Under the pieces are notes generated by a model that worked only from the letters and a program-made list of their open reading frames with translations, was not told where the DNA came from and made no database searches. The translations under genes were made by a program, and so were the position numbers. DNA of 25,875 bases from a virus. This document shows positions 35-22,563 of this stretch, piece after piece. The stretch spans positions 1 to 25,875 of the IMG/VR virus record IMGVR_UViG_3300014320_000001. One strand, given 5' to 3'. Position 1 is the stretch's first letter, and each line of letters opens with the position of its first letter.

Positions 35-121
35 AAGACTAAAAGACTGTGTAAGACTAAATAACACTGACACAACACTGATCCAACACTAATGCCCCCA
101 AAACAACACTGGTGCAACAAT
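35..121. repeat. Helically phased AARACT box array
   Basis: Eight close copies of a hexamer lie on the + strand of non-coding DNA. AAGACT starts at 35, 43 and 53; AACACT starts at 63, 74, 85 and 105; AACAAT starts at 116. Start-to-start spacing is 8, 10, 10, 11, 11, 20 and 11 bp, so most copies are about one helical turn apart and one position near 95 is skipped. The later copies share a longer CAACACTG core. Such phased boxes are typical of sites bound by several copies of one protein, for example a replication initiator, a repressor or a small terminase. Which applies here cannot be read from the sequence. Confidence 0.6.
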
Positions 122-148
122 GAAGCGCCGGTCCTAGGCTGGGGATAT

Positions 149-171
149 AAAAAAAGGGGGCTTTCGCCCCC
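149..171 (-). terminator. Rho-independent terminator of the leftward gene
   Basis: Read on the minus strand, GGGGGC, loop GAAA and GCCCCC form a perfect 6-bp stem with a tetraloop, followed directly by seven T. The stem starts 7 bp after the stop codon of the leftward gene at 179-631. There is no T tract on the + strand side, so it works in one direction only. Confidence 0.9.
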
Positions 172-178
172 TGCTCGA

Positions 179-631
179 TTAGAATTCGAATTTCGTCCCT
201 TGTGCCGCGTCTTGCGCGCGCTTCGCTTCGTACGCGGTCATCTTCGCCGCGATCTGGGGATTCGATGCCCATTCTTTCAACTTGTCATCCCCAGCTTCGT
301 TGACCTTCGTCTTGACATCATCCGCCTTGATCCCGGTTACCTCGGCGATCGCGCGAATCAGATCTTCCGTATTCACGCCTGCCATGCCCCAGATCCCGCG
401 TCGCAAGCCATCCGCCACGCGGGCGATCCCGGCATACGCTTTCGCGACATCCCCTTTCGCGGATGCGGCTGCATCGGACACCTTCTGCTTCACGCCATGC
501 ATCAACGCCTTTTCTCGTTGCGAGGGCGCGAATGTCGAAGTATCGACATCAACTGTTTGTCCACCCTTGAACGTCCAGCGCATGACCGTGCCGTGCTGCG
601 TTACTTCATACAACGCATCTTTCCTTGCCAT
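179..631 (-). CDS. Conserved phage protein of unknown function, 150 aa, leftward
   Basis: I chose the ATG at 631 over one 12 codons upstream because GGAG lies 7 nt before it and the upstream ATG would sit on the predicted transcription start. The N-terminus looks like a short beta-rich segment (residues 1-30, with HGTVMRWTF). Next come the segment MHGVKQKVSDAAA (about 43-55) and a helical, Ala/Lys-rich C-terminus ending KFEF. The HGxKQKxxDAA pattern followed by a W-containing helical region recalls a protein family common in phage genomes and without known function. No enzyme motif or helix-turn-helix is evident. It is the only leftward gene in the window and has its own promoter and terminator, so it is expressed independently of the late operon. 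It could be a moron-like cargo gene or the edge of an early module. Coding is very likely; function is unknown. Confidence 0.85.
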   Translation of the reverse strand: MARKDALYEVTQHGTVMRWTFKGGQTVDVDTSTFAPSQREKALMHGVKQKVSDAAASAKGDVAKAYAGIARVADGLRRGIWGMAGVNTEDLIRAIAEVTGIKADDVKTKVNEAGDDKLKEWASNPQIAAKMTAYEAKRAQDAAQGTKFEF

Positions 632-649
632 GATCCATCTCCATTTGTA

Positions 650-666
650 TGTACCCCATCGGTACA
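650..666. promoter_or_regulatory. Candidate operator dyad over the leftward transcription start
   Basis: TGTACC, five bases (CCATC) and GGTACA form a perfect 6-bp inverted repeat. It covers the predicted start point of the minus-strand promoter (around 665) and lies just upstream of the ribosome site for the leftward gene. A repressor bound here would block transcription; in RNA the arms would form a 5' hairpin. The site is inferred from symmetry and position only. Confidence 0.4.
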
Positions 667-671
667 CTTAC

Positions 672-699
672 ATTATGGTATCATTTGGGCCAAAATCAA
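672..699 (-). promoter_or_regulatory. Sigma70-type promoter for the leftward gene
   Basis: On the minus strand, TTGATT (699-694; 4 of 6 consensus bases) is followed after 16 bp by CATAAT (677-672; 5 of 6). Transcription would start near 665, leaving a leader of about 34 nt that contains the GGAG ribosome site of the 150-aa gene. Confidence 0.6.
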
Positions 700-1060: not shown

Positions 1061-1630
1061 ATGGACAAGACTCTTGTCATCTTCAAGGACATGGCGGGCA
1101 AACGGGGTCGCCCGTCTAACTACGTCTCGGGCCAGAAGGGGATGCAGCGCCTCGCGCCGACCCACGAGGCCATTATGGACTGGATTCTCCTCAACCCCGG
1201 TAAAGGTCTTCGTGAATGCGCGGCGTTCTTCGGCTATTCCGTCGGTGGCATCGGATGGATCGTAAACAGCGATCTCTTTCAAGCCAAACTCGCCGAACGG
1301 CGGAGGGAGATCGAGACCGTGCTCGCGGCCGATATCCCGGCGAAGCTGACGATCCTCGGTTCCGTAGCGATCGATCGAACTCTCGAAGTGATCGAGAAAA
1401 CGACTGATCCTGACGTGATCGTGGATATCTTCGACAAGACGCTCCACCGGCTCGGCTACGCCCCGTCCAAGCAAACCGGTCCTGCGATTCAGTTCAATAC
1501 GCAGAACAACTCCTTCACGGTCTCCCCGGAGGAGCTCAGGCAGGCTAAGGCCGTAATGCTCCAGGCCGCGAACGGCGTTCCCGTTCTCGCCCCGGCGGCT
1601 GCCTTCGAACAGAGGCCGAATGACGAATGA
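1061..1630 (+). CDS. Terminase small subunit (putative)
   Basis: This 189-aa protein is taken as the DNA-recognition subunit of the packaging motor, because it lies directly before the large terminase and overlaps it by 11 bp. The N-terminus is basic (MAGKRGRPSNY, from residue 12). Residues about 45-90 look like a helix-turn-helix: LRECAAFFGYSVGGIGWI followed by a long charged helix (LAERRREIE). This is the usual plan of small terminases. The middle is predicted helical (oligomerisation), and the C-terminus (SPEELRQAK) is probably the contact to the large subunit. The ATG at 1061 lacks a ribosome site. The next ATG, at 1094, has AAGGA only 1 nt away, so the start is uncertain by 11 codons. 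The family is inferred from position and architecture. Confidence 0.75.
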   Translation: MDKTLVIFKDMAGKRGRPSNYVSGQKGMQRLAPTHEAIMDWILLNPGKGLRECAAFFGYSVGGIGWIVNSDLFQAKLAERRREIETVLAADIPAKLTILGSVAIDRTLEVIEKTTDPDVIVDIFDKTLHRLGYAPSKQTGPAIQFNTQNNSFTVSPEELRQAKAVMLQAANGVPVLAPAAAFEQRPNDE

Positions 1631-3080
1631 AGTTAACTCCGCTGAAGCAGTCCAGCTCGGGGCAACGTCGCTTATCCTATTCGGCAAGCTCTTCTTCCCA
1701 AGAACCTTCCGCCAGGACAGCCCAGACTTCCACCGCGAGATCGGCCTCCATCTATACGGCCCCGCTCGATATAATGCATTTAAGATTTTTAGAGACGGAG
1801 CTAAAACGACACTCCTCCGTGTCTATATCGCCCAGCGGATCGCTTACGACATATCTCGAACTATAATGTGCGTTTCCGTCTCCCAACCGCATTCGATCAT
1901 GACCCTTCGATGGCTGAAAAAGCAGATCGAGAGGAATCAGACCTTCGCTGGGACATTCGGCCTGAAGCCCGGAGCTAAATGGACTGACGAATGGTTAGAG
2001 GTCAAACACACGGTCACGAACGACATAACGACTGTCCTCGCCGCCGGTATCACGGGCCAAATTCGCGGCTATAACATCGACGACTACCGGCCCGATCTTA
2101 TCATCGGAGACGATCTCTGCAATGAGGAAAACACCGCAACTCCGGAACAGCGATCGAAAACCGCTAACCTTTGGTTTGGTGCGCTCTATAACTCACTCGC
2201 GCCCACCTCGGAAGCTCCTCTTGCAAAGATGGCGCTCCTCCAGACGCCCCTTAACCGCGAGGACCTTATCGAAACTTGTTCTAAGTCGCCTCATTGGAAT
2301 ACACTCACCTATGGCGTGTTTGATGAGGAAGGTCACTCTCGCTGGCCTTCGCGCTGGACAACCGACGTACTGGTGGCAGAGAAGAATGCGTCCACGGCCC
2401 AAGGTAATCTCCATATCTGGATGCGAGAAAAGGAATGCAGACTCGTCTCCTCCGACATCATGCCGTTCGACGTCACGAATATTCAGTACTATGAAACGCC
2501 GCCGGCCGAAGGTTTCACGATCATCTCCGTCGATCCGGCCTCGTCCGAATCTAAAACTGCCGACGATACGGCCATTCTTGCAGTCCGACTGGTGGGCCAG
2601 AAGGTATACCTTTTAGACGCTTTCGCCGAGAAAGGCGTCATGCCGGACGCAGCCGCGGCGAAGTTCTTCGAATTCGTCTGGAAATACAACCCCATCAAGG
2701 GTGTGATCGAGACCATTTCCTACCAACGAATCCTCAAATGGTTCTTCGAGCAGGAAATGATGCGTCGTCGGCTCTTCATTCCTCTTGACGAAGTTAAGGA
2801 CAAACGGAAGAAACACGACAGGATTATGCAGGCTCTTTCCGAACCTCTCCGCTTCCGCAACGTCTATGTCCGAAAGAATGATGACAGTCCTGGCGTTATC
2901 AAGTTCCTCCAGCAACTTACTGATTTCAGCCCTGGCATCGAAATGCACGATGACGTCCTCGACGCCCTGGCTATGGCTATCACCTCCGTCAATCCCGCTC
3001 AACGCTACGCCGCCGACGTACAGGATATGTACTCGCTGCCTGCGCCGGTTAAAGAGCTCGAACTGTTCGATGCACCATGA
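1620..3080 (+). CDS. Terminase large subunit
   Basis: This is a 486-aa packaging motor: an N-terminal ATPase drives DNA into the procapsid and a C-terminal RNase H-like nuclease cuts it. The ATPase has a variant Walker A (FRDGAKTT, residues 57-64, Lys62) and Walker B (DLIIGDD, 159-165). The nuclease has SVDPAS (Asp305), the acidic residue in VIETISYQ (Glu364) and HDDVLDAL (Asp444/445), in the order expected for the metal-binding triad. The length is normal for the family. The start at 1620 overlaps the small-subunit stop by 11 bp, with AGAGG a few bases upstream. The stop overlaps the portal start by 4 bp (ATGA). The Walker A carries GAKTT instead of the textbook GKT/S, a variation often seen in terminases. 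Confidence 0.95.
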   Translation: MTNEVNSAEAVQLGATSLILFGKLFFPRTFRQDSPDFHREIGLHLYGPARYNAFKIFRDGAKTTLLRVYIAQRIAYDISRTIMCVSVSQPHSIMTLRWLKKQIERNQTFAGTFGLKPGAKWTDEWLEVKHTVTNDITTVLAAGITGQIRGYNIDDYRPDLIIGDDLCNEENTATPEQRSKTANLWFGALYNSLAPTSEAPLAKMALLQTPLNREDLIETCSKSPHWNTLTYGVFDEEGHSRWPSRWTTDVLVAEKNASTAQGNLHIWMREKECRLVSSDIMPFDVTNIQYYETPPAEGFTIISVDPASSESKTADDTAILAVRLVGQKVYLLDAFAEKGVMPDAAAAKFFEFVWKYNPIKGVIETISYQRILKWFFEQEMMRRRLFIPLDEVKDKRKKHDRIMQALSEPLRFRNVYVRKNDDSPGVIKFLQQLTDFSPGIEMHDDVLDALAMAITSVNPAQRYAADVQDMYSLPAPVKELELFDAP

Positions 3081-6200: not shown

Positions 6201-7400
6201 ATGGCAATCGCAGGCCTTCGCGGGACTGGTCAGTGGGTAACTGACGAGCGCCCCAAAAACTTTCGTGAATATATCCTCTGGCGGAACCCGAACGGCTCGG
6301 CGCCTTTGACAGCTCTCCTGTCCAAGATGGCGTCAGAGAAATCGGACGATCCAGAATTCGCATGGTGGGAAGAAGAGCTGACCGTTCTCCGGGCTGCCCT
6401 TGCGGCTCAAGTCGGCAACACGACCACTGCCAACACGCTTTCAGTCGCAACCGTCACTGCCGGAGTCGACGCTTACGCCTTCGTCCCCGGTGATATTCTC
6501 ACCGCCGAAGCGAATGCCGACAACGACCCGTACACGACTTGGGAATACATGATCGTCAGCGCGGCGGCGACAACCTCAACGATCATCAACGTGACACGGG
6601 CTGCGTTCGGAACGACAGTTTCGACTATCACTACCAGCACGTACATCGCGAAGATCGGCAATGCGTACTCGGAAGGCTCGACCTCGCCGAACGCAGTTGG
6701 CCGGAGCCCGGCGAAGCTCTTCAACTACACTCAGATTTTCAAAACGTCATACGAGCTCACCCGGACCACGAAGCAAACTCGCCTCCGCACGGGCGACCCG
6801 CTGAAGAACGCCAAGAAGCGCCGGATGTTCGATCATTCCGTCGCAATGGAACTGGCGTTCCTCTTCGGCCGTCGTGCAGAGTCGACTGGTTCTAACAGCC
6901 AGCCTCTCCGGTACACCGGCGGCCTTCGATCGTTCCTTTCAACCAACGTCACTCGCTTCACGACAACGGCCACGGAGGCAACGTTTCTCACCGCCGTCCA
7001 GTCCGTGTTCGATTTCGACGCCGGTTCTGGCAACGAAAGGCTGATGCTCTGCGGCAACTCCTTCCTCACGAGCCTCAACAAGCTCGCCAAGGCGGGAATG
7101 CAGGTCCGAACGGATGAAGTCGTCAGGCTCTACGGTATGCAGTTGCAGAGATGGATTATCCCACAAGGAACGTTCTATCTCCGCACTCACCCGCTGATGA
7201 ACGTCATGCCAGGCTATACGAAGTGCGCCTTCATCATTGATCCCTCGGCGCTGAAGTATCGTTACCTCCAGGACACGATCTCGCAAGATCAAATTCAGGC
7301 GAACGATGCTGACGAACACAAGGGGCAGTGGTTGACGGAATGCGGTCTCGAGGTTAGGCACGAGAAGACCCTCGGGTTCCTGTCGAACTTCTTCGCATAG
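6201..7400 (+). CDS. Major capsid protein
   Basis: This 399-aa shell protein is expected to have the HK97 fold. The position after the scaffold supports this. Supporting segments are NPNGSAPLTALLSKM near residue 30, the FNYTQIFKTSYELT segment after a beta-rich insert (about 65-165), LMLCGNSFLTSLNKLA (about 275-290) and an aromatic C-terminal part (LRTHPLMNVMPGY, LKYRYLQDT). It ends with GLEVRHEKTLGFLSNFFA. The pattern is closest to the SU10-like/DUF5309 capsid family, from memory of its motifs and not from a search. A TAGGAGTTAA ribosome box ends 6 nt upstream. The Thr/Ala-rich insert at about 65-165 could be a surface domain. Confidence 0.9.
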   Translation: MAIAGLRGTGQWVTDERPKNFREYILWRNPNGSAPLTALLSKMASEKSDDPEFAWWEEELTVLRAALAAQVGNTTTANTLSVATVTAGVDAYAFVPGDILTAEANADNDPYTTWEYMIVSAAATTSTIINVTRAAFGTTVSTITTSTYIAKIGNAYSEGSTSPNAVGRSPAKLFNYTQIFKTSYELTRTTKQTRLRTGDPLKNAKKRRMFDHSVAMELAFLFGRRAESTGSNSQPLRYTGGLRSFLSTNVTRFTTTATEATFLTAVQSVFDFDAGSGNERLMLCGNSFLTSLNKLAKAGMQVRTDEVVRLYGMQLQRWIIPQGTFYLRTHPLMNVMPGYTKCAFIIDPSALKYRYLQDTISQDQIQANDADEHKGQWLTECGLEVRHEKTLGFLSNFFA

Positions 7401-13644: not shown

Positions 13645-15568
13645 CCTTCTCCTTCTCATGCTCGTTCCATCTCTGGCATTCGGTCAGTTGTGGAGCGGGA
13701 TTATTGATCCCCCGAGGGCAACGGACTGGACCGCGGCGGGTGTTAGCGGCGGAATCCCGAAGCGCGAGACGATCTGCTCTTCACTCACGTCTAGCGCAAG
13801 CGCATCAACCATCAACAGCGCCATAGCGGGATGCCCGTCGGGACAAGTCGTCTTCCTGGCCGCAGGAACTTACACGCTTTCAGCGGGCATCACTCTCAAC
13901 AAATCCAACGTAACGCTACGTGGTGCAGGTGCCGATAAGACCATTCTCAACATTTCGGGGAACGTTGGGCAGGGGTGTCACATCGGTGATGGTCGCGTCT
14001 TTAATATTTGTCAAGGGTCTTCTAACATCGGGGTTGATAGCCCAGATAATACTGCGGTTTGGAGCGCGGGCTATTCGCAGGGTACGACTAACATTACCCT
14101 CAATGTCCACACAAACTTGACCGTTGGCAGCACAATCTGGCTCGATCAGCTCGACGACACAGCTGACGGGTATCCGGCTGCGGGCGATGTTTACATCTGC
14201 GACACAGCAGCTACGACTTGTTCCAATCAAGCTGGTGCTGCGGCGTATGCGCGGAGCGGACGGTCGCTAGTCGAAGGCCATGTGGTCACTGCTTGCGGAA
14301 CCTCTACACCGGGGGCGGCTTGTACTAGCAACAACGTGACTATCACACCTGGAATTATTAACCCGGTATTCCGTTCCGGTAGGTCCCCCGGGGCTTGGTG
14401 GGGTAACACAAGTAACGTCATCAATAATTCTGGGGTCGAGGATCTCACCATCAACATGACCCCCTGCTCTGGGTGCAGTGGTCTCTACATCATTAACGGG
14501 ACGAATGTGTGGGTGAAAGGCGTGCGTCTTATCAAGACCGATGCGAGTGGGTCTGAATGGCGCGGGTTCTTTACGGTTAACGCGGTTCGTGCTTCTGTCG
14601 TGGACAGTTACATCTACGGGGGTTCTTCCACCGAGATCATCTCATACTACAGCGCGTCTACGCACGTTACGACTGGACTGCTTTTCCAGAATAACATTCT
14701 GCACAACTGTCCAATTGGACTCGTGCCTAACAGCACGACACATGGGAGCGTGTTTGCCTATAACTATTCGGATAACGTAAGGACGGCCACCGTAGTTGAG
14801 CACGGCTTGACGACTTTCAATCTGTACGAGGGCAACGACTTCTCGAATTTCGTTAGCGACATCATCCATGCGCCTCACTTCTTCCTGACTCTCTTTCGCA
14901 ACCTATCCGATGGCACGCTGAACAATCCGGCCGTGGCGAACTGGCAGGACCAAGCGCCTTTTGCATTGCACTCGCTCGCGCGTTTCTACAACGTCATTGG
15001 GAACGTGAGCGACACCGGGCACACGACCAGCTATCAGGTCAATGAGCAGATTGGGCAGAACACCATCTTTGAGCTTGGTTGGAGGGGGACCGGATCAGGT
15101 GTAACGGTGAACAATGACCCGAACGTAGAGCGCACCTTGTACCGCTGGGGGAACTGGGACGACGTGACGAATGCGGTGCGGTGGTGCGGTAATTCAGGCA
15201 ACACCGGATGGAGCACGACCTGCTCGAGCACGAGCGAAGTGCCAACCGGGATCACGAACTACCCGCAATCCGTTCCGAGTACCGAGACGCTGCCGGCGAG
15301 CTTCTATCTTGGCAGCACGAGGCCAGCGTGGTTTGGATCGATCGCCTATCCACCCATCGGGCCTGATGTGTCGGGCGGCAACATCAGCGGATTCGGTGGG
15401 CACGCAAACAAGATCCCAGCAAAGGCGTGCTTCGACCTGATGAGTCAGGACAGCACCAACTTCAGCGGCACGAACGTGATTCATTTCCTTCCGCAACTGT
15501 GCTACGGCACGGGAAGCGGAGTGGCTCCGGGGGCACTGCCGTTCCCGGAGAACATCAGGACGCAATAA
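13631..15568 (+). CDS. Signal-peptide-bearing beta-helix protein (pectate-lyase-like)
   Basis: Of two possible ATGs (13604 and 13631), the second gives MSRASLLLLMLVPSLAFG followed by Gln, a clear Sec signal peptide with a charged start, hydrophobic core and Ala-Phe-Gly cleavage site. The mature protein is about 627 aa. It begins with a segment typical of pectin-lyase-like folds: STINSAIAGCPSGQVVFLAAGTYTL, given here as parts, then TLRGAGADKTIL. Many beta-helix turns follow (VWVKGVRLIK, LLFQNNILHN, YNVIGNVSD). Several Cys pairs (for example near residues 185, 220, 275 and 520) suit disulfides outside the cytoplasm. The fold suggests polysaccharide binding or degradation; catalytic residues cannot be assigned. 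It overlaps the preceding gene by 14 bp. Confidence 0.8.
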   Translation: MSRASLLLLMLVPSLAFGQLWSGIIDPPRATDWTAAGVSGGIPKRETICSSLTSSASASTINSAIAGCPSGQVVFLAAGTYTLSAGITLNKSNVTLRGAGADKTILNISGNVGQGCHIGDGRVFNICQGSSNIGVDSPDNTAVWSAGYSQGTTNITLNVHTNLTVGSTIWLDQLDDTADGYPAAGDVYICDTAATTCSNQAGAAAYARSGRSLVEGHVVTACGTSTPGAACTSNNVTITPGIINPVFRSGRSPGAWWGNTSNVINNSGVEDLTINMTPCSGCSGLYIINGTNVWVKGVRLIKTDASGSEWRGFFTVNAVRASVVDSYIYGGSSTEIISYYSASTHVTTGLLFQNNILHNCPIGLVPNSTTHGSVFAYNYSDNVRTATVVEHGLTTFNLYEGNDFSNFVSDIIHAPHFFLTLFRNLSDGTLNNPAVANWQDQAPFALHSLARFYNVIGNVSDTGHTTSYQVNEQIGQNTIFELGWRGTGSGVTVNNDPNVERTLYRWGNWDDVTNAVRWCGNSGNTGWSTTCSSTSEVPTGITNYPQSVPSTETLPASFYLGSTRPAWFGSIAYPPIGPDVSGGNISGFGGHANKIPAKACFDLMSQDSTNFSGTNVIHFLPQLCYGTGSGVAPGALPFPENIRTQ

Positions 15569-18306
15569 TGGCCTTCGCGCCAGAAGCTGTTAGCGGCACG
15601 AGTGGTGTAAGCCAAACGTCGTTGACCGTTAGCAGCTTCACGGTCACGTCGGCCAATTTGATGCTGGTAGGTGTCGCTTGGGGTGCTGCTTCACCTGTCG
15701 ATAGTGTCGTTGACCCGCCTACATGGAATACGACCGAGAGTTTCACAAAGGTCGCGAGCAGCGGAATTGATGATGGCGGAATCTGGGCGTCCGTGGTCTG
15801 GTATCGCCTGGATAATCCTAGCACCGGCACACACGACATCACGTTCGATTACGGCGGGTACTCGCCCGTCCAAAGCTCGCTCCATGTAGTTACTTTCACA
15901 GACGCCAACCTTACGCTTGGTGCGGCGTCTACTGCGACCAATACAACTTCTGATCCTTCGCTCACCGTCGCTGCTTCTGCGTCGGGTAACATCGTTGTGT
16001 CGCTATGCAGCAACGACAACAGCGCCAACCCAACGACGCAAGCAGGCACGCTGATCTACGAAGCCGAGAATATCGGCAGTGACCTCGATACGAGCGCGCA
16101 GTACCAGACAGCGACCGGAGCGAATACCGTTTGCTCGTGGACGCAAAATGCTAGCGGCGACGGGTGGGTAGCGTCTGGCTTTGCAGTATCTGCTGCCGCC
16201 GGGGGTAATCCTGAGCTCGACGCGGAAGCCGGTTCCATTACGATTACAGGAACCGATGCAGGAGTAGAGTACGGCCGCGCAGTAGTTGCCGAAAGTGGCG
16301 CAGTTGCTATATCAGGCACAGATGTTACTTTGCTACGCGGGTTAGTAATGGACGCGGAAGCCGGCGCTGTATCTATCAGCGGCACAGACGCCGCGCTTCA
16401 TTACAGCGATATTCTAGATGCTGAAGCTGGTTCCGTCGCCATTACTGGAACGCCGGCCAACCTTTATCTCGGACGGGTGATTGAGGCTGATCCTGGTTCA
16501 GTTATCGTTACCGGGACGGCGGCCGATCTTTGGGCAAATAAACAGCTCAATGCCGATCCGGGTAGCATTATTGTCTCGGGCTCGGATTCAACCTCCTACG
16601 TAGATAGGACACTAGATGCCTCTGCTGGCGCGGTAACGATTACAGGGACTGCCGCAACACTAACAAGCAATCGTATCCTGACTGCTGAAAGCGGCTCCGT
16701 CACCATTACAGGGACGGACGCTGCGCTCGAGGCTGGGCCCGATTACGCAATCGCGGCGGAGAGCGGTTCCGTAATCGTCTCTGGAACTGATGCAAGTCTT
16801 GCTTATGGCTATTTGATTGGAGCAGAAGCAGGTTCCGTAACCATAACTGGCACCGACGTAGGACTAGAGTATGGCGGAGCTTTTACTGCAGATCCGGGTG
16901 CTGTTACTATTACCGGCACAGACGCAACGTTTGGCTATAGTAGGATTATTCAAGCCGATCCTGGCAGTGTTGTAATTTCAGCCGAAGAAACAGTACTATT
17001 CTACGAGCGGCTAGAGCTCACTTCAAGAGAAGAACGGGCAGCCGCTCTTTCCTTCGGTGAAGATTTTATACCGTGCTTCCCCCTTGCGGATTCTAGTATA
17101 ACGCTGGAAGATCAATCACAAGCAATTAACTCCTTCCCGCTTTATATCTACAATACAACCCTCTCTACGAGGGCACAACGAATTTCAGCACTGAATATAG
17201 CAAGCCTCTGGCCGAGCGTATGGCCCGAGGTTTCTGGGATATCAATTCCAGAGCGGCGATGGGCTATTGCTTCGTACACCCAGGTCGCTCCGATGACCGT
17301 GATGGCGCAGGCAACTGCGTCTGTCACTGCGAATCTTTCTATAGCCGCTCGACTTTCCGCGCTGCTCGTTGCGCAGAGTACAGCTACTCTAAGTGAAAAT
17401 ACCCTAATTACTGCTGGACTGTCGGCGGCCGCGAGCGCATCTTTTGCGTTGACTACCGGAATTAGGCTCAGCGCGAACCTCAGCGGTCAAGCTTCCATTA
17501 CTGCCTCAGGTCCGAATAGAGCTCCTATAGTATCTACTATTCCAACTCAAACTTTCTTCGATGGCTCCGTCGAGGGTAAGGATCTTTCTTCTTTCGTTGC
17601 TGATCTAGACGGTGACATCCTTATAGCTCGATTCTATCCCGATCCAGGAACTCCGACACCGACATTTACAGTCAATGCAAATACAAGCGTGTTGCAGTAT
17701 TCTGGATCGGTTGTTGGGGCTCCTAAGATCTATCCCGGCAACGTGGTCGTCTGGGATGATGGCTTTGGTCTCGGTGCGTATCTTCCAGCCAGAGCGACAG
17801 TTACAGCTGCGTTAGGAACGAGCATTCCCCTTGCCGCCGGATTAGACGGTATGGCAAGTGTGCTGAATACTTTCTTAACCGATGAAGTTTCGTTTGCTAC
17901 TCAGCTATTCAGCTCAGCCACGATCGCTGCTGATCTAACTACTGGGGTTGTTCTACAATCTCAACTCTTTGGCGAAGCCTCTATAGATGCTACGTTAGGG
18001 TCAGTAAGTTCTCTTTCTGCGACTGTTCTTGGAAATGCTTCAATCAATGCCGATATTTATGCTGAAGTTATAGCTCTGGATGCTGCCTGTGTAGCTGAAG
18101 CCTCTGTAGTCCCCAATCTTACAACTGGTATAAAGATGAGCGCCAGTCTGGCAGGACTTTCCAGTTTCTTCGATCGGAGTATTAATCTCGAAGCTACCCT
18201 GCTCGCGTCTGCCAGTATATCTGGGCTGTTGCGGGATTATCCTGGGCAATGGAGGAAAGAAATTCCAGTAACTACTGTCTGGGAAGAGGAGTCTAAACCG
18301 CTATGA
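15568..18306 (+). CDS. Large multidomain repeat tail-fibre protein
   Basis: This 912-aa protein starts at the ATG overlapping the previous stop (TAATG); the frame is open further upstream, but only inside the beta-helix gene. Residues 1-215 are a beta-sandwich paralogous to the 222-aa protein at 11393. Residues 218-483 are twelve 22-residue repeats of the form (D/E)AEAGSVTITGTDAxLxYG, one with a 2-residue insert. Residues about 484-570 form a charged module (LTSREERAAALSF, STRAQRISALNIASLWP). The rest has a second repeat style (ASVTANL, LTTGIRLSANLSGQASI) that flanks a cadherin/Ig-like domain (APIVSTIPTQTFFDG, VADLDGDIL). This is a stalk-and-domain plan for a long fibre or spike. It overlaps the adaptor gene as ATGA. 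Confidence 0.8.
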   Translation: MAFAPEAVSGTSGVSQTSLTVSSFTVTSANLMLVGVAWGAASPVDSVVDPPTWNTTESFTKVASSGIDDGGIWASVVWYRLDNPSTGTHDITFDYGGYSPVQSSLHVVTFTDANLTLGAASTATNTTSDPSLTVAASASGNIVVSLCSNDNSANPTTQAGTLIYEAENIGSDLDTSAQYQTATGANTVCSWTQNASGDGWVASGFAVSAAAGGNPELDAEAGSITITGTDAGVEYGRAVVAESGAVAISGTDVTLLRGLVMDAEAGAVSISGTDAALHYSDILDAEAGSVAITGTPANLYLGRVIEADPGSVIVTGTAADLWANKQLNADPGSIIVSGSDSTSYVDRTLDASAGAVTITGTAATLTSNRILTAESGSVTITGTDAALEAGPDYAIAAESGSVIVSGTDASLAYGYLIGAEAGSVTITGTDVGLEYGGAFTADPGAVTITGTDATFGYSRIIQADPGSVVISAEETVLFYERLELTSREERAAALSFGEDFIPCFPLADSSITLEDQSQAINSFPLYIYNTTLSTRAQRISALNIASLWPSVWPEVSGISIPERRWAIASYTQVAPMTVMAQATASVTANLSIAARLSALLVAQSTATLSENTLITAGLSAAASASFALTTGIRLSANLSGQASITASGPNRAPIVSTIPTQTFFDGSVEGKDLSSFVADLDGDILIARFYPDPGTPTPTFTVNANTSVLQYSGSVVGAPKIYPGNVVVWDDGFGLGAYLPARATVTAALGTSIPLAAGLDGMASVLNTFLTDEVSFATQLFSSATIAADLTTGVVLQSQLFGEASIDATLGSVSSLSATVLGNASINADIYAEVIALDAACVAEASVVPNLTTGIKMSASLAGLSSFFDRSINLEATLLASASISGLLRDYPGQWRKEIPVTTVWEEESKPL
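16219..17016 (+). repeat. Tandem array of twelve 66-bp units (22-aa repeats)
   Basis: Eleven units of 66 bp and one of 72 bp (16681-16752) follow one another without gaps. Each encodes a repeat of the form xAExGSVTITGTDAxLxYxxxI. The conserved core is Gly-(Ser/Ala)-(Val/Ile) then Ile/Val-(Thr/Ser)-Gly-Thr. The DNA copies differ widely at third positions, so the duplications are old or have been remodelled. Confidence 0.9.
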
Positions 18307-20978: not shown

Positions 20979-21217
20979 CTATCGTAGAAGCATTTCAGAA
21001 GCACAAAGTCGTCCGCCGGGCATTGATGCTCTGGATGATGGCCCTGACAACTCATGTATTTATCTGGGCTATGGGATTTAGCGATTCGGCGCTGACGACG
21101 CAGCGAACGGGGATTGACCTCGCGGCGATGATTGGGGCGATTACAGGTCCGTTGGCCCTCTTGCAAGGATACGTGTTCAAACTGTATAACGAAGCTCGCC
21201 AGGAGGATTCAGCATGA
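20975..21217 (+). CDS. Holin-like protein (two TM segments)
   Basis: This 80-aa protein has a basic N-terminus (KHKVVRRA), a first hydrophobic segment (LMLWMMALTTHVFIWAMG) and a second (LAAMIGAITGPLALLQGYVF), then a polar tail (LYNEARQEDSA). Two TM helices, small size and an ATGA overlap with the endolysin gene are the classic holin setting. The holin forms holes in the inner membrane at a set time so that the endolysin can reach the cell wall. GGGAG lies 5 nt upstream. No family match is claimed. Confidence 0.75.
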   Translation: MTIVEAFQKHKVVRRALMLWMMALTTHVFIWAMGFSDSALTTQRTGIDLAAMIGAITGPLALLQGYVFKLYNEARQEDSA

Positions 21218-21753
21218 GCTGCTTCGACGACGCCTTCGAACGGTTGATCCTTGTCGAGGGAGGGTATTCGAATAACCCTTACGATAGAGGAGGAAAGACG
21301 GCTTACGGCATCACGGAACGAGTTGCTCGGGCGAACGGCTATACGGAAGCTATGGAGAATCTTCCTCTTGACAAAGCGAAAGAGATCTATAAAGAACAGT
21401 ATTGGGATCTTTTGAAGCTCACGCCCGTTTCCGTTCTGAGCTGCCCGCTGGCCGAGGAGATGTTCGAGATCGGCGTCAACATGGGCGTCGGGCGAGCCAC
21501 GACGTTCCTCCAACGTGTTCTGAATGCGACTAACAAATCCGGGCAGGATTGGATGGATATTTCAGTCGATGGCGCGATGGGGCCGATGACTCTAGACGCT
21601 CTAGGAATGCTGTATAAACGGAGGGGCGATGAAGGATTGGAAGTAGTAAAAAAGGCCATCAATTGCTTGCAAGGGGCGCGATATGTCGAACTGGCGGAAG
21701 CCGATGTTTCACAAGAAGCGTTTGTCTACGGGTGGCTACGAGCTAGAGTGTAA
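21214..21753 (+). CDS. GH108-type endolysin
   Basis: This 179-aa lysozyme-like protein cuts the peptidoglycan sugar backbone. The hallmark is VEGGYSNNPYDRGG followed by TAYGIT, in which Glu15 is the expected catalytic acid. The second half (LAEEMFEIGVNMG, VDGAMGPMTLDAL) matches the C-terminal peptidoglycan-binding part that usually goes with GH108 enzymes. There is no signal peptide, so it depends on the holin for export. A very strong AGGAGG site precedes the start, 7 nt away. It overlaps the holin gene as ATGA. The length is normal for the family. Confidence 0.9.
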   Translation: MSCFDDAFERLILVEGGYSNNPYDRGGKTAYGITERVARANGYTEAMENLPLDKAKEIYKEQYWDLLKLTPVSVLSCPLAEEMFEIGVNMGVGRATTFLQRVLNATNKSGQDWMDISVDGAMGPMTLDALGMLYKRRGDEGLEVVKKAINCLQGARYVELAEADVSQEAFVYGWLRARV

Positions 21754-22261
21754 CCACTCGCCCTCTGCTGTCGCCCCTTTTACGAGGGACCAGTTGTTAA
21801 ATGACATCATCAGAAAGTGTCCTGCTTGTTTGAAGTTAGTTAGAAGTTCTATTTTAGGAGATTATCATGGCTCTGGACAAAGAGACGACCCAGCAAATCG
21901 TGAACGAGCTCTACGAGAAGCAGAAAGCCGAAATGAAGGCGGCATATGCCCGGTGGGGAAAACATACTGTATTTGGAGTACTGGGTCTGATAATTGGTGC
22001 TGTCGCGGGTTACTTGTTCGCCCTGGCGACGGTGGGAGTGTGAATGAGCGAGCGCGGCGCGATCAGCTTAATGCTGATTGGCGGATTGGGGATTCTGCTA
22101 GTGATAGTGGGTCTGGTCACGAGTCTGAAAGTGCAATCCACGCGGCTGGCTCACTCGAAGGCAGAGACGAAGCAATGCAAGCTGGACTACGAGAACTTCC
22201 GGGACGAATCGGCTGCTCTCGGCGCCAAGGCCCAAAGGGAGACGGAGGCGAGGAATCGTGA
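21683..22261 (+). CDS. Possible overlapping zinc-ribbon-like ORF
   Basis: This frame is open from an ATG at 21683 (or 21704, with GGAAG 4-5 nt upstream) to a stop at 22259-22261. It covers the 113-bp gap after the endolysin and reads YELECNHS then CPACLKLV, spaced like a small zinc ribbon. Its stop TGA overlaps the GTG of the outer spanin (GTGA). After about residue 65 it overlaps two better-supported genes and its composition (Arg, Gly, Ser, Asp) looks like a shadow. The zinc-ribbon part alone may be real. Weak overall. Confidence 0.3.
   Translation: MSNWRKPMFHKKRLSTGGYELECNHSPSAVAPFTRDQLLNDIIRKCPACLKLVRSSILGDYHGSGQRDDPANRERALREAESRNEGGICPVGKTYCIWSTGSDNWCCRGLLVRPGDGGSVNERARRDQLNADWRIGDSASDSGSGHESESAIHAAGSLEGRDEAMQAGLRELPGRIGCSRRQGPKGDGGEES
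21867..22043 (+). CDS. Small single-TM protein, 58 aa
   Basis: This protein starts MALDKETTQQIVNELYEKQ, has a soluble helix to about residue 31, then one TM helix (VFGVLGLIIGAVAGYLFAL), and ends shortly after in ATVGV. TAGGAG lies 6 nt before the ATG, one of the best ribosome sites in the lysis block. Its stop is directly followed by the inner spanin ATG. It could be an antiholin, a second holin-like protein or a spanin partner. No family recognised. Confidence 0.75.
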   Translation: MALDKETTQQIVNELYEKQKAEMKAAYARWGKHTVFGVLGLIIGAVAGYLFALATVGV

Positions 22262-22550
22262 TAATCAGATTATTCTCGCCAAGCAGCTTCGTGAGACGAA
22301 ACAGTTGCTTAATCGCGCTGTGTTTGCTGAGCGCAAGCTGCGCCAGCGAGCCCCGGAGCGTCCCGATAGCAGTCTCGTGCCCATCACCACCTGTAATAGC
22401 GAAGGAGCTGCTAGAACCCCTGGAGAATTCGTATCTCTTGAAGAATTTCGACAGTTGGAGGGACGAGCGCTTAGAGATACGCAGCGATGCGCTTTACTTC
22501 AACGAACGATCCTCGAGCTTCATGAAAAAGGACTCGTCGAAGTCAAATGA
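22044..22550 (+). CDS. Inner-membrane spanin (Rz-like)
   Basis: This 168-aa protein has an N-terminal TM helix (ISLMLIGGLGILLVIVGLV, about 7-25) and a long charged coiled coil (DYENFRDESAALGAKAQRETEAR in parts, then KQLRETKQLLNRAVFAERKLRQR). This is the plan of inner spanins, which span the periplasm and join the outer spanin to fuse the membranes at lysis. The outer spanin gene lies inside it in another frame, the lambda-type nested order. GGGAG lies 6 nt upstream. The assignment rests on topology and context; sequence similarity was not checked. Confidence 0.8.
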   Translation: MSERGAISLMLIGGLGILLVIVGLVTSLKVQSTRLAHSKAETKQCKLDYENFRDESAALGAKAQRETEARNRDNQIILAKQLRETKQLLNRAVFAERKLRQRAPERPDSSLVPITTCNSEGAARTPGEFVSLEEFRQLEGRALRDTQRCALLQRTILELHEKGLVEVK

Positions 22551-22563
22551 GATTTCCTGTTAA
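22258..22563 (+). CDS. Outer-membrane lipoprotein spanin (Rz1-like), nested
   Basis: This 101-aa frame starts at GTG 22258 (after GGAGGCGAGG); a GTG at 22291 is another possible start. The N-terminus has charged residues, a hydrophobic stretch (CLIALCLLSAS) and Cys28 as the likely lipidated residue in SASC. The lipobox is weak because a Ser stands at -3 where Leu is usual. A Pro-rich part follows (SEPRSVPIAVSCPSPP), as in known Rz1 proteins. It lies almost wholly inside the inner spanin gene in another frame and ends just after it. This fits a two-part spanin of a Gram-negative phage. Confidence 0.75.
   Translation: MIIRLFSPSSFVRRNSCLIALCLLSASCASEPRSVPIAVSCPSPPVIAKELLEPLENSYLLKNFDSWRDERLEIRSDALYFNERSSSFMKKDSSKSNEISC

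Follow-up and report, generated by a model that had tools for sequence, protein, structure and literature searches.

The question raised by this locus is why one small phage gene reads leftward in surroundings that otherwise read rightward, and what such a gene might do. The window, by which we mean the whole stretch of DNA that was analysed, is a complete IMG/VR record of 25,875 bases, and this record covers part of a phage genome. It carries the late genes of a tailed phage, from the terminase subunits (small and large) through portal and capsid onwards, all of them rightward, and this divergent module is opened by the gene for the terminase small subunit. A preliminary description had singled out a gene that reads against all others, and this holds: the gene, here called F1, is on the minus strand and all other plausible genes of the window are rightward. 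The genes at this border are the following.

179-631, minus strand: F1 gene, with its ATG at 631, its stop codon at 179-181, a product of 150 aa, and homologs in relatives
1061-1630, plus strand: terminase small subunit (TerS), assigned from its position before TerL and its homology to the gene at the same position in relatives
1620-3080, plus strand: terminase large subunit (TerL), the anchor for finding relatives

The explanation that we favour, with a probability of roughly 0.6, is that F1 is the terminase-proximal member of a two-gene early family and a single-gene unit whose mRNA is capped by a hairpin. It is comparison between sequences that establishes the family, its pairing and position, the ancient duplication behind it and the pattern of promoters, terminators and hairpins.

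Some features of the rightward genes may be recorded here. A TATAAT at 1047-1061 stands only 8 nt 5' of the TerS ATG, which could mean a leaderless terminase message or could be chance. The region 15427-18306 encodes a long protein in which degenerate repeats of the AEAGSVxITGTDAxL type are numerous, probably a tail or adhesin protein, and the overlapping reading frames at 22044-22563, which follow a lysozyme-like gene (21214-21753), resemble a nested Rz/Rz1 spanin pair.

The F1 protein had been described as belonging to no family with a known job, and it indeed has no above-cut-off match in Pfam or PHROGs. As the sole query it gave no match in phages or viral contigs, and its relatives could be reached only through the terminase neighbourhood. 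A search with TerL led to six viral contigs. Five of these six loci, found by TerL alone, carry the family, and in most of them an F1 homolog lies at the same place and against the terminase. An alignment of seven such homologs then gave 113 relatives in viral contigs, via the motif HG[LV]xQKxxD, and the majority of loci proved to have two copies. Exactly two copies, F1 and F2, are present in 39 of the 41 whole records searched and a single copy in the two others, most of the 41 having been picked because they carry the family. The window protein has the same motif and matches the two-domain profile with an E-value of 8e-39 in the window record. This profile search found one F gene in the record, which ends 178 bases past F1, and the F2 partner would lie beyond the left edge of the window.

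Only two deposited relatives were found, Microcystis phage Mel-JY34 (XAI96502 and XAI96444) and the spring-water phage Bacteriophage sp. ctMlz233 (MW202489; UOF77868 and UOF77862), and all four proteins are annotated as hypothetical. Both phages resemble the rest of the family in having two members per genome, on the early side and adjoining the terminase genes. XAI96502 is 23% identical to the window protein, and the proteins of both phages are missed when the window protein itself is the query. No member of the family has a meaningful match in Pfam, PHROG, NCBIfam or PADLOC, the unnamed PHROG 28928 matching nine members weakly. A search of 84,980 bacterial and archaeal genomes gave matches in no more than three short MAG contigs; this near-absence suggests that the phages are lytic, and the F genes are thus apparently not prophage cargo. 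Judged from these searches, F1 and F2 are an undescribed paired family of predicted early genes, absent from the protein-family libraries searched.

The map around the pair recurs, with portal, TerL, (VRR nuclease) and TerS on one strand and F1 and F2 on the other. Among the 42 two-copy loci, F1 is opposite the terminase in 37 and F2 in 40, counts that include near-identical contigs and are not independent. The window agrees, since F1 adjoins the terminase genes on the opposite strand. A few genomes have one copy inverted, as expected if each copy is a self-contained unit. In a maximum-likelihood tree the F1 and F2 labels change 4 times, compared with 23 times when the labels are shuffled, which argues for an ancient duplication with both copies retained. 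The window protein falls with F1, as sister (support 98/90) to the F1 of its nearest relative, a complete IMG/VR contig of 47.3 kb (locus L004, genome G001); no further close F1 relative of that locus turned up. In G001 the two genes head a leftward module that contains a Cas4-like nuclease, a Sak4-like ATPase, ParB-like/methylase genes, a DNA polymerase (PolA) and a primase-like gene. By gene order, then, F1 is the first gene on the early side and the head of the putative early/replication module of tailed phages that are probably lytic.

This bears on two points of the preliminary description. A control gene at a module border had been suggested; the position is borne out, at the border of early and late genes, and the control role is conjectural. 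Membership of a longer leftward operon in relatives had been named as what would speak against an independent unit, and here the outcome is divided: F1 heads a long leftward module, and its own terminator is kept in the nearest relative. A conserved 66-aa protein is also encoded near F2 (35130-35330 in L093, with homologs in 34 loci); it looks ribbon-helix-helix-like by eye and has no match in Pfam.

The signals for expression of F1, with a set of repeats next to them, are listed here.

694-699, minus strand: -35 element TTGATT, with TTGACT at the matching spacing in the nearest relative
672-677, minus strand: -10 element CATAAT after a 16-bp spacer, identical in the nearest relative
649-667, minus strand: 7-bp stem with 5-nt loop at the predicted mRNA 5' end, containing the dyad TGTACC-N5-GGTACA
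639-642, minus strand: Shine-Dalgarno GGAG, 7 nt before the ATG, read directly from the sequence
148-172, minus strand: intrinsic terminator, with stem-loop AGGGGGCGAAAGCCCCCT-TTTTTT at 172-155 and then a T-tract
61-129, plus strand: iteron-like direct repeats AACACT(G/A) with a period of about 11 bp

Taken alone, the sigma70-like promoter that had been proposed for the gene is weak, as TTGATT-16-CATAAT (699-672) scores 9/12 and some 1.6 sites this good would be expected in every 3 kb. It gains support from TTGACT-16-CATAAT at the same place in the nearest relative, where GTACCC-ACAT-GGGTAC, a ribosome site and a terminator past the stop codon follow; the F2 gene of that genome has its own TTGACA-16-TATAAT and its own terminator. 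The terminator had been called clean, and it is a clear intrinsic one, also seen with the homolog. Given that promoter spacing, dyad arms and terminator are all repeated in the nearest relative, chance is an unlikely source. In the family at large, strict terminators lie 3' of 36 of 115 genes, compared with 6 of 539 controls, and promoters with a score of 10/12 or more lie upstream of 25 of 120 genes, compared with 42 of 539 controls, where the controls are genes from the same loci and the family rows are related, so that the counts are not independent. A promoter scoring at least 9 is present in only 40 of 120 family genes. Set against the controls, these terminators and promoters support the self-contained unit and extend it to a trait of the whole family.

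Other short sequences lie close to the gene. The AACACT(G/A) repeats lie close to the F1 terminator on its left, the side expected to hold F2; no such cluster was seen in G001. CCTAGG boxes, rare elsewhere, cluster round F1 both in the window, with three of its four copies (131-138, 753-780), and in G001, with two of its three copies (near 6389-6406).

The dyad is where our reading departs most from the preliminary description, which had placed it over the predicted start and called it operator-like. TGTACC-N5-GGTACA is exact at 650-666, but it leaves the start codon uncovered and lies upstream of the Shine-Dalgarno sequence, at the predicted transcription start. One could suppose that F1 or another phage protein binds it at +1, so that the gene represses itself at the early/late border. 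The perfect 6-bp arms, their conservation at the matching position in L004 with a different spacer, and the location of F1 on a divergent border would all suit such an operator. A 6-bp dyad with a spacer of 3-8 nt is found by chance in about 4% of 60-nt upstream stretches. Several sites would be looked for, whereas the dyad is single-copy in the window (a partial genome), where looser copies (up to 3 mismatches) are no commoner than chance predicts, and its counterpart is single-copy in G001. A scan of viral contigs with the pattern CCATAATGNAANTGTACC gave 38 stretches; the one in G001 alone is at an F gene and has its dyad completed. Nor is the dyad common to F1 and F2 of one genome, and no confident match to a recognised DNA-binding domain was obtained for F1 with Pfam, PHROGs or the structure searches.

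Much more regular is the predicted folding of the RNA. The leader hairpin of the window gene (-9.4 kcal/mol, z -1.6) is only moderately unusual, and its stem begins 4-6 nt past the -10 element, that is, where the transcript is predicted to begin. When folding was scored at fixed offsets from the -10 element in the 27 family genes whose promoter lies 30-90 nt upstream, most family leaders falling outside this test since a recognisable promoter is present in a minority only, a hairpin was found at +6 in 20 of 27 genes and in 9 of 42 controls (Fisher p 2e-5), with z below -1.5 there in 74% and 21%. The peak of stability is sharp, from +4 to +8 (median z about -2), and returns to baseline by +12; in the whole set a positional hairpin peak lies 36-64 nt upstream of the start codons. 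The control promoters are mostly probably spurious, and three of the 12 controls scoring at least 11 also carry a 5' hairpin, which may mark early promoters generally. A sense/antisense folding test, in which GU pairs would favour RNA over a DNA dyad, gave no clear difference (p 0.06), and Rfam gave no match. From phage to phage the hairpins mostly show no sequence relationship, nor do those of F1 and F2 within one genome (L004, L007, L083). A protein-bound operator is expected to keep its sequence, while a 5'-terminal stem-loop needs pairing only. The family keeps structure and not sequence, and a stabilising stem-loop at the 5' end therefore fits better than an operator, which we regard as unlikely, if conceivable as a peculiarity of the small subclade of the window gene; a family-wide hairpin at the mRNA 5' end takes its place.

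Looking at the protein itself can help to narrow what the unit expresses. An AlphaFold2 model built from 89 sequences, with the Mel-JY34 row left out, has a pLDDT of 91.6 and a pTM of 0.58, and predicts three beta strands and two helices (residues 8-77) followed by a four-helix C-terminal domain (residues 88-144). The near-invariant H45, G46, Q49, K50 and D53 share one predicted helix; G79 and W81 come after it, W81 being near-invariant as well. Searches of the PDB with the whole model or the C-terminal domain gave no match with E <= 0.001, and BFVD returned three unnamed viral proteins that are probably members of the family. Weak similarities to HU, DNA ligase and DNA_ligase_A_N all fell on a single helix-turn-helix segment, and we take them for noise. 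The majority of members are acidic (median pI 5.6) and many of these end in a DxDxLL tail.

Such acidic tails are one reason to consider that F1 is the single-stranded DNA-binding protein (SSB) of the phage, made in bulk as partner of the Sak4 annealase. Sak4 of phage HK620 works with SSB and needs the acidic tip on it (PMC5928155). Sak4-like genes occur in 26 of 26 genomes, although the profile used (phrog_124) also matches most cellular control genomes and is better taken as a marker of RecA-like ATPases than strictly of Sak4. No SSB of PF00436 or PF10991 was found, the PF10991 search showing little as it had no positive control. The predicted fold of beta strands and helices is not an OB fold, however, and the window protein is basic (pI 9.1) and lacks the acidic tail. 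A conserved 153-aa DUF669-like gene near sak4 in all three complete genomes fits better, and makes it very improbable that F1 fills this place. These small DUF669-like proteins, near or beside sak4 (26731-27192 in L093, 11030-11494 in L094, 43773-44123 in G001), are likely the SSB of these phages.

The stand-alone signals of the first genes of an early module, and a small product without a known fold, would also suit a protein for early host takeover or anti-defence, aimed at RNA polymerase, the nucleoid or restriction, with F2 aimed at a second target. Genes of this kind usually vary between phages. F1 and F2 are instead kept across a very diverse group with near-invariant polar residues, and PADLOC gave no match of note, so we hold this role to be improbable in its specific form. 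Less narrowly, F1 and F2 might together bind nucleic acid or serve in host takeover, by means of the conserved HGxxQKxxD helix; of the roles considered we rate this one highest, though it is a doubtful guess. Hardly credible, by comparison, is the moron that had been put forward, a cargo gene taken up for the benefit of the host and expressed on its own. F1 does have its own promoter and terminator on the opposite strand. Morons are sporadic extras expressed from prophages, and here the homologs are core genes, paired, fixed in place, carried by almost every record searched across a broad phage group, and derived from an ancient duplication. The few MAG matches do not speak for expression from prophages either, and the GC and GC3 of the window gene are ordinary. 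What remains is that F1 is an early, probably abundant protein that acts with its paralog.

For the favoured reading, a hairpin-capped single-gene early unit, we infer mRNA stabilisation, early timing and high output. Host sigma70 polymerase would start transcription just before the short hairpin, the F1 mRNA would open with a stem-loop, and RppH and RNase E should be denied access to its 5' terminus. Next would come a good ribosome site, and the intrinsic terminator would close the message. One would expect a small two-domain protein to be produced abundantly, in an early burst that does not depend on the operons next to it. That F1 and F2 form an obligatory early pair acting together, each from a long-lived hairpin-capped single-gene mRNA, throughout a large and mostly uncultured lytic group, is a more tentative proposal. 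If it is true, they could for example be a hetero-oligomeric machine that binds nucleic acid or polymerase, and the phages would have a dedicated format for high-output early expression. The family is present twice in nearly all members searched, with near-invariant residues and dedicated signals, and yet is missing from the libraries searched. Its fixed place would make F1 and F2 usable as a marker of the early/late border in these phages. A testable rule for the stability of their early messages is offered by the constant placement of the 5' hairpin.

Known systems offer parallels for both the message and the gene. In E. coli it is established that 5'-terminal stem-loops hinder RppH and 5'-end-dependent RNase E (reviewed in PMC3997798), and the ompA and papA leaders are described there as examples of mRNAs stabilised by a stem-loop (Emory, Bouvet and Belasco 1992, via PMC3997798). 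These leaders and the predicted F1 leader are alike in having a stem-loop at the very 5' end with an unstructured ribosome site next to it; the F1 hairpin differs in standing on phage early genes and in being predicted from sequence only. The morons of lambdoid phages share with F1 the possession of their own promoter and terminator, whereas F1 belongs to a pair of core genes in phages that are apparently lytic.
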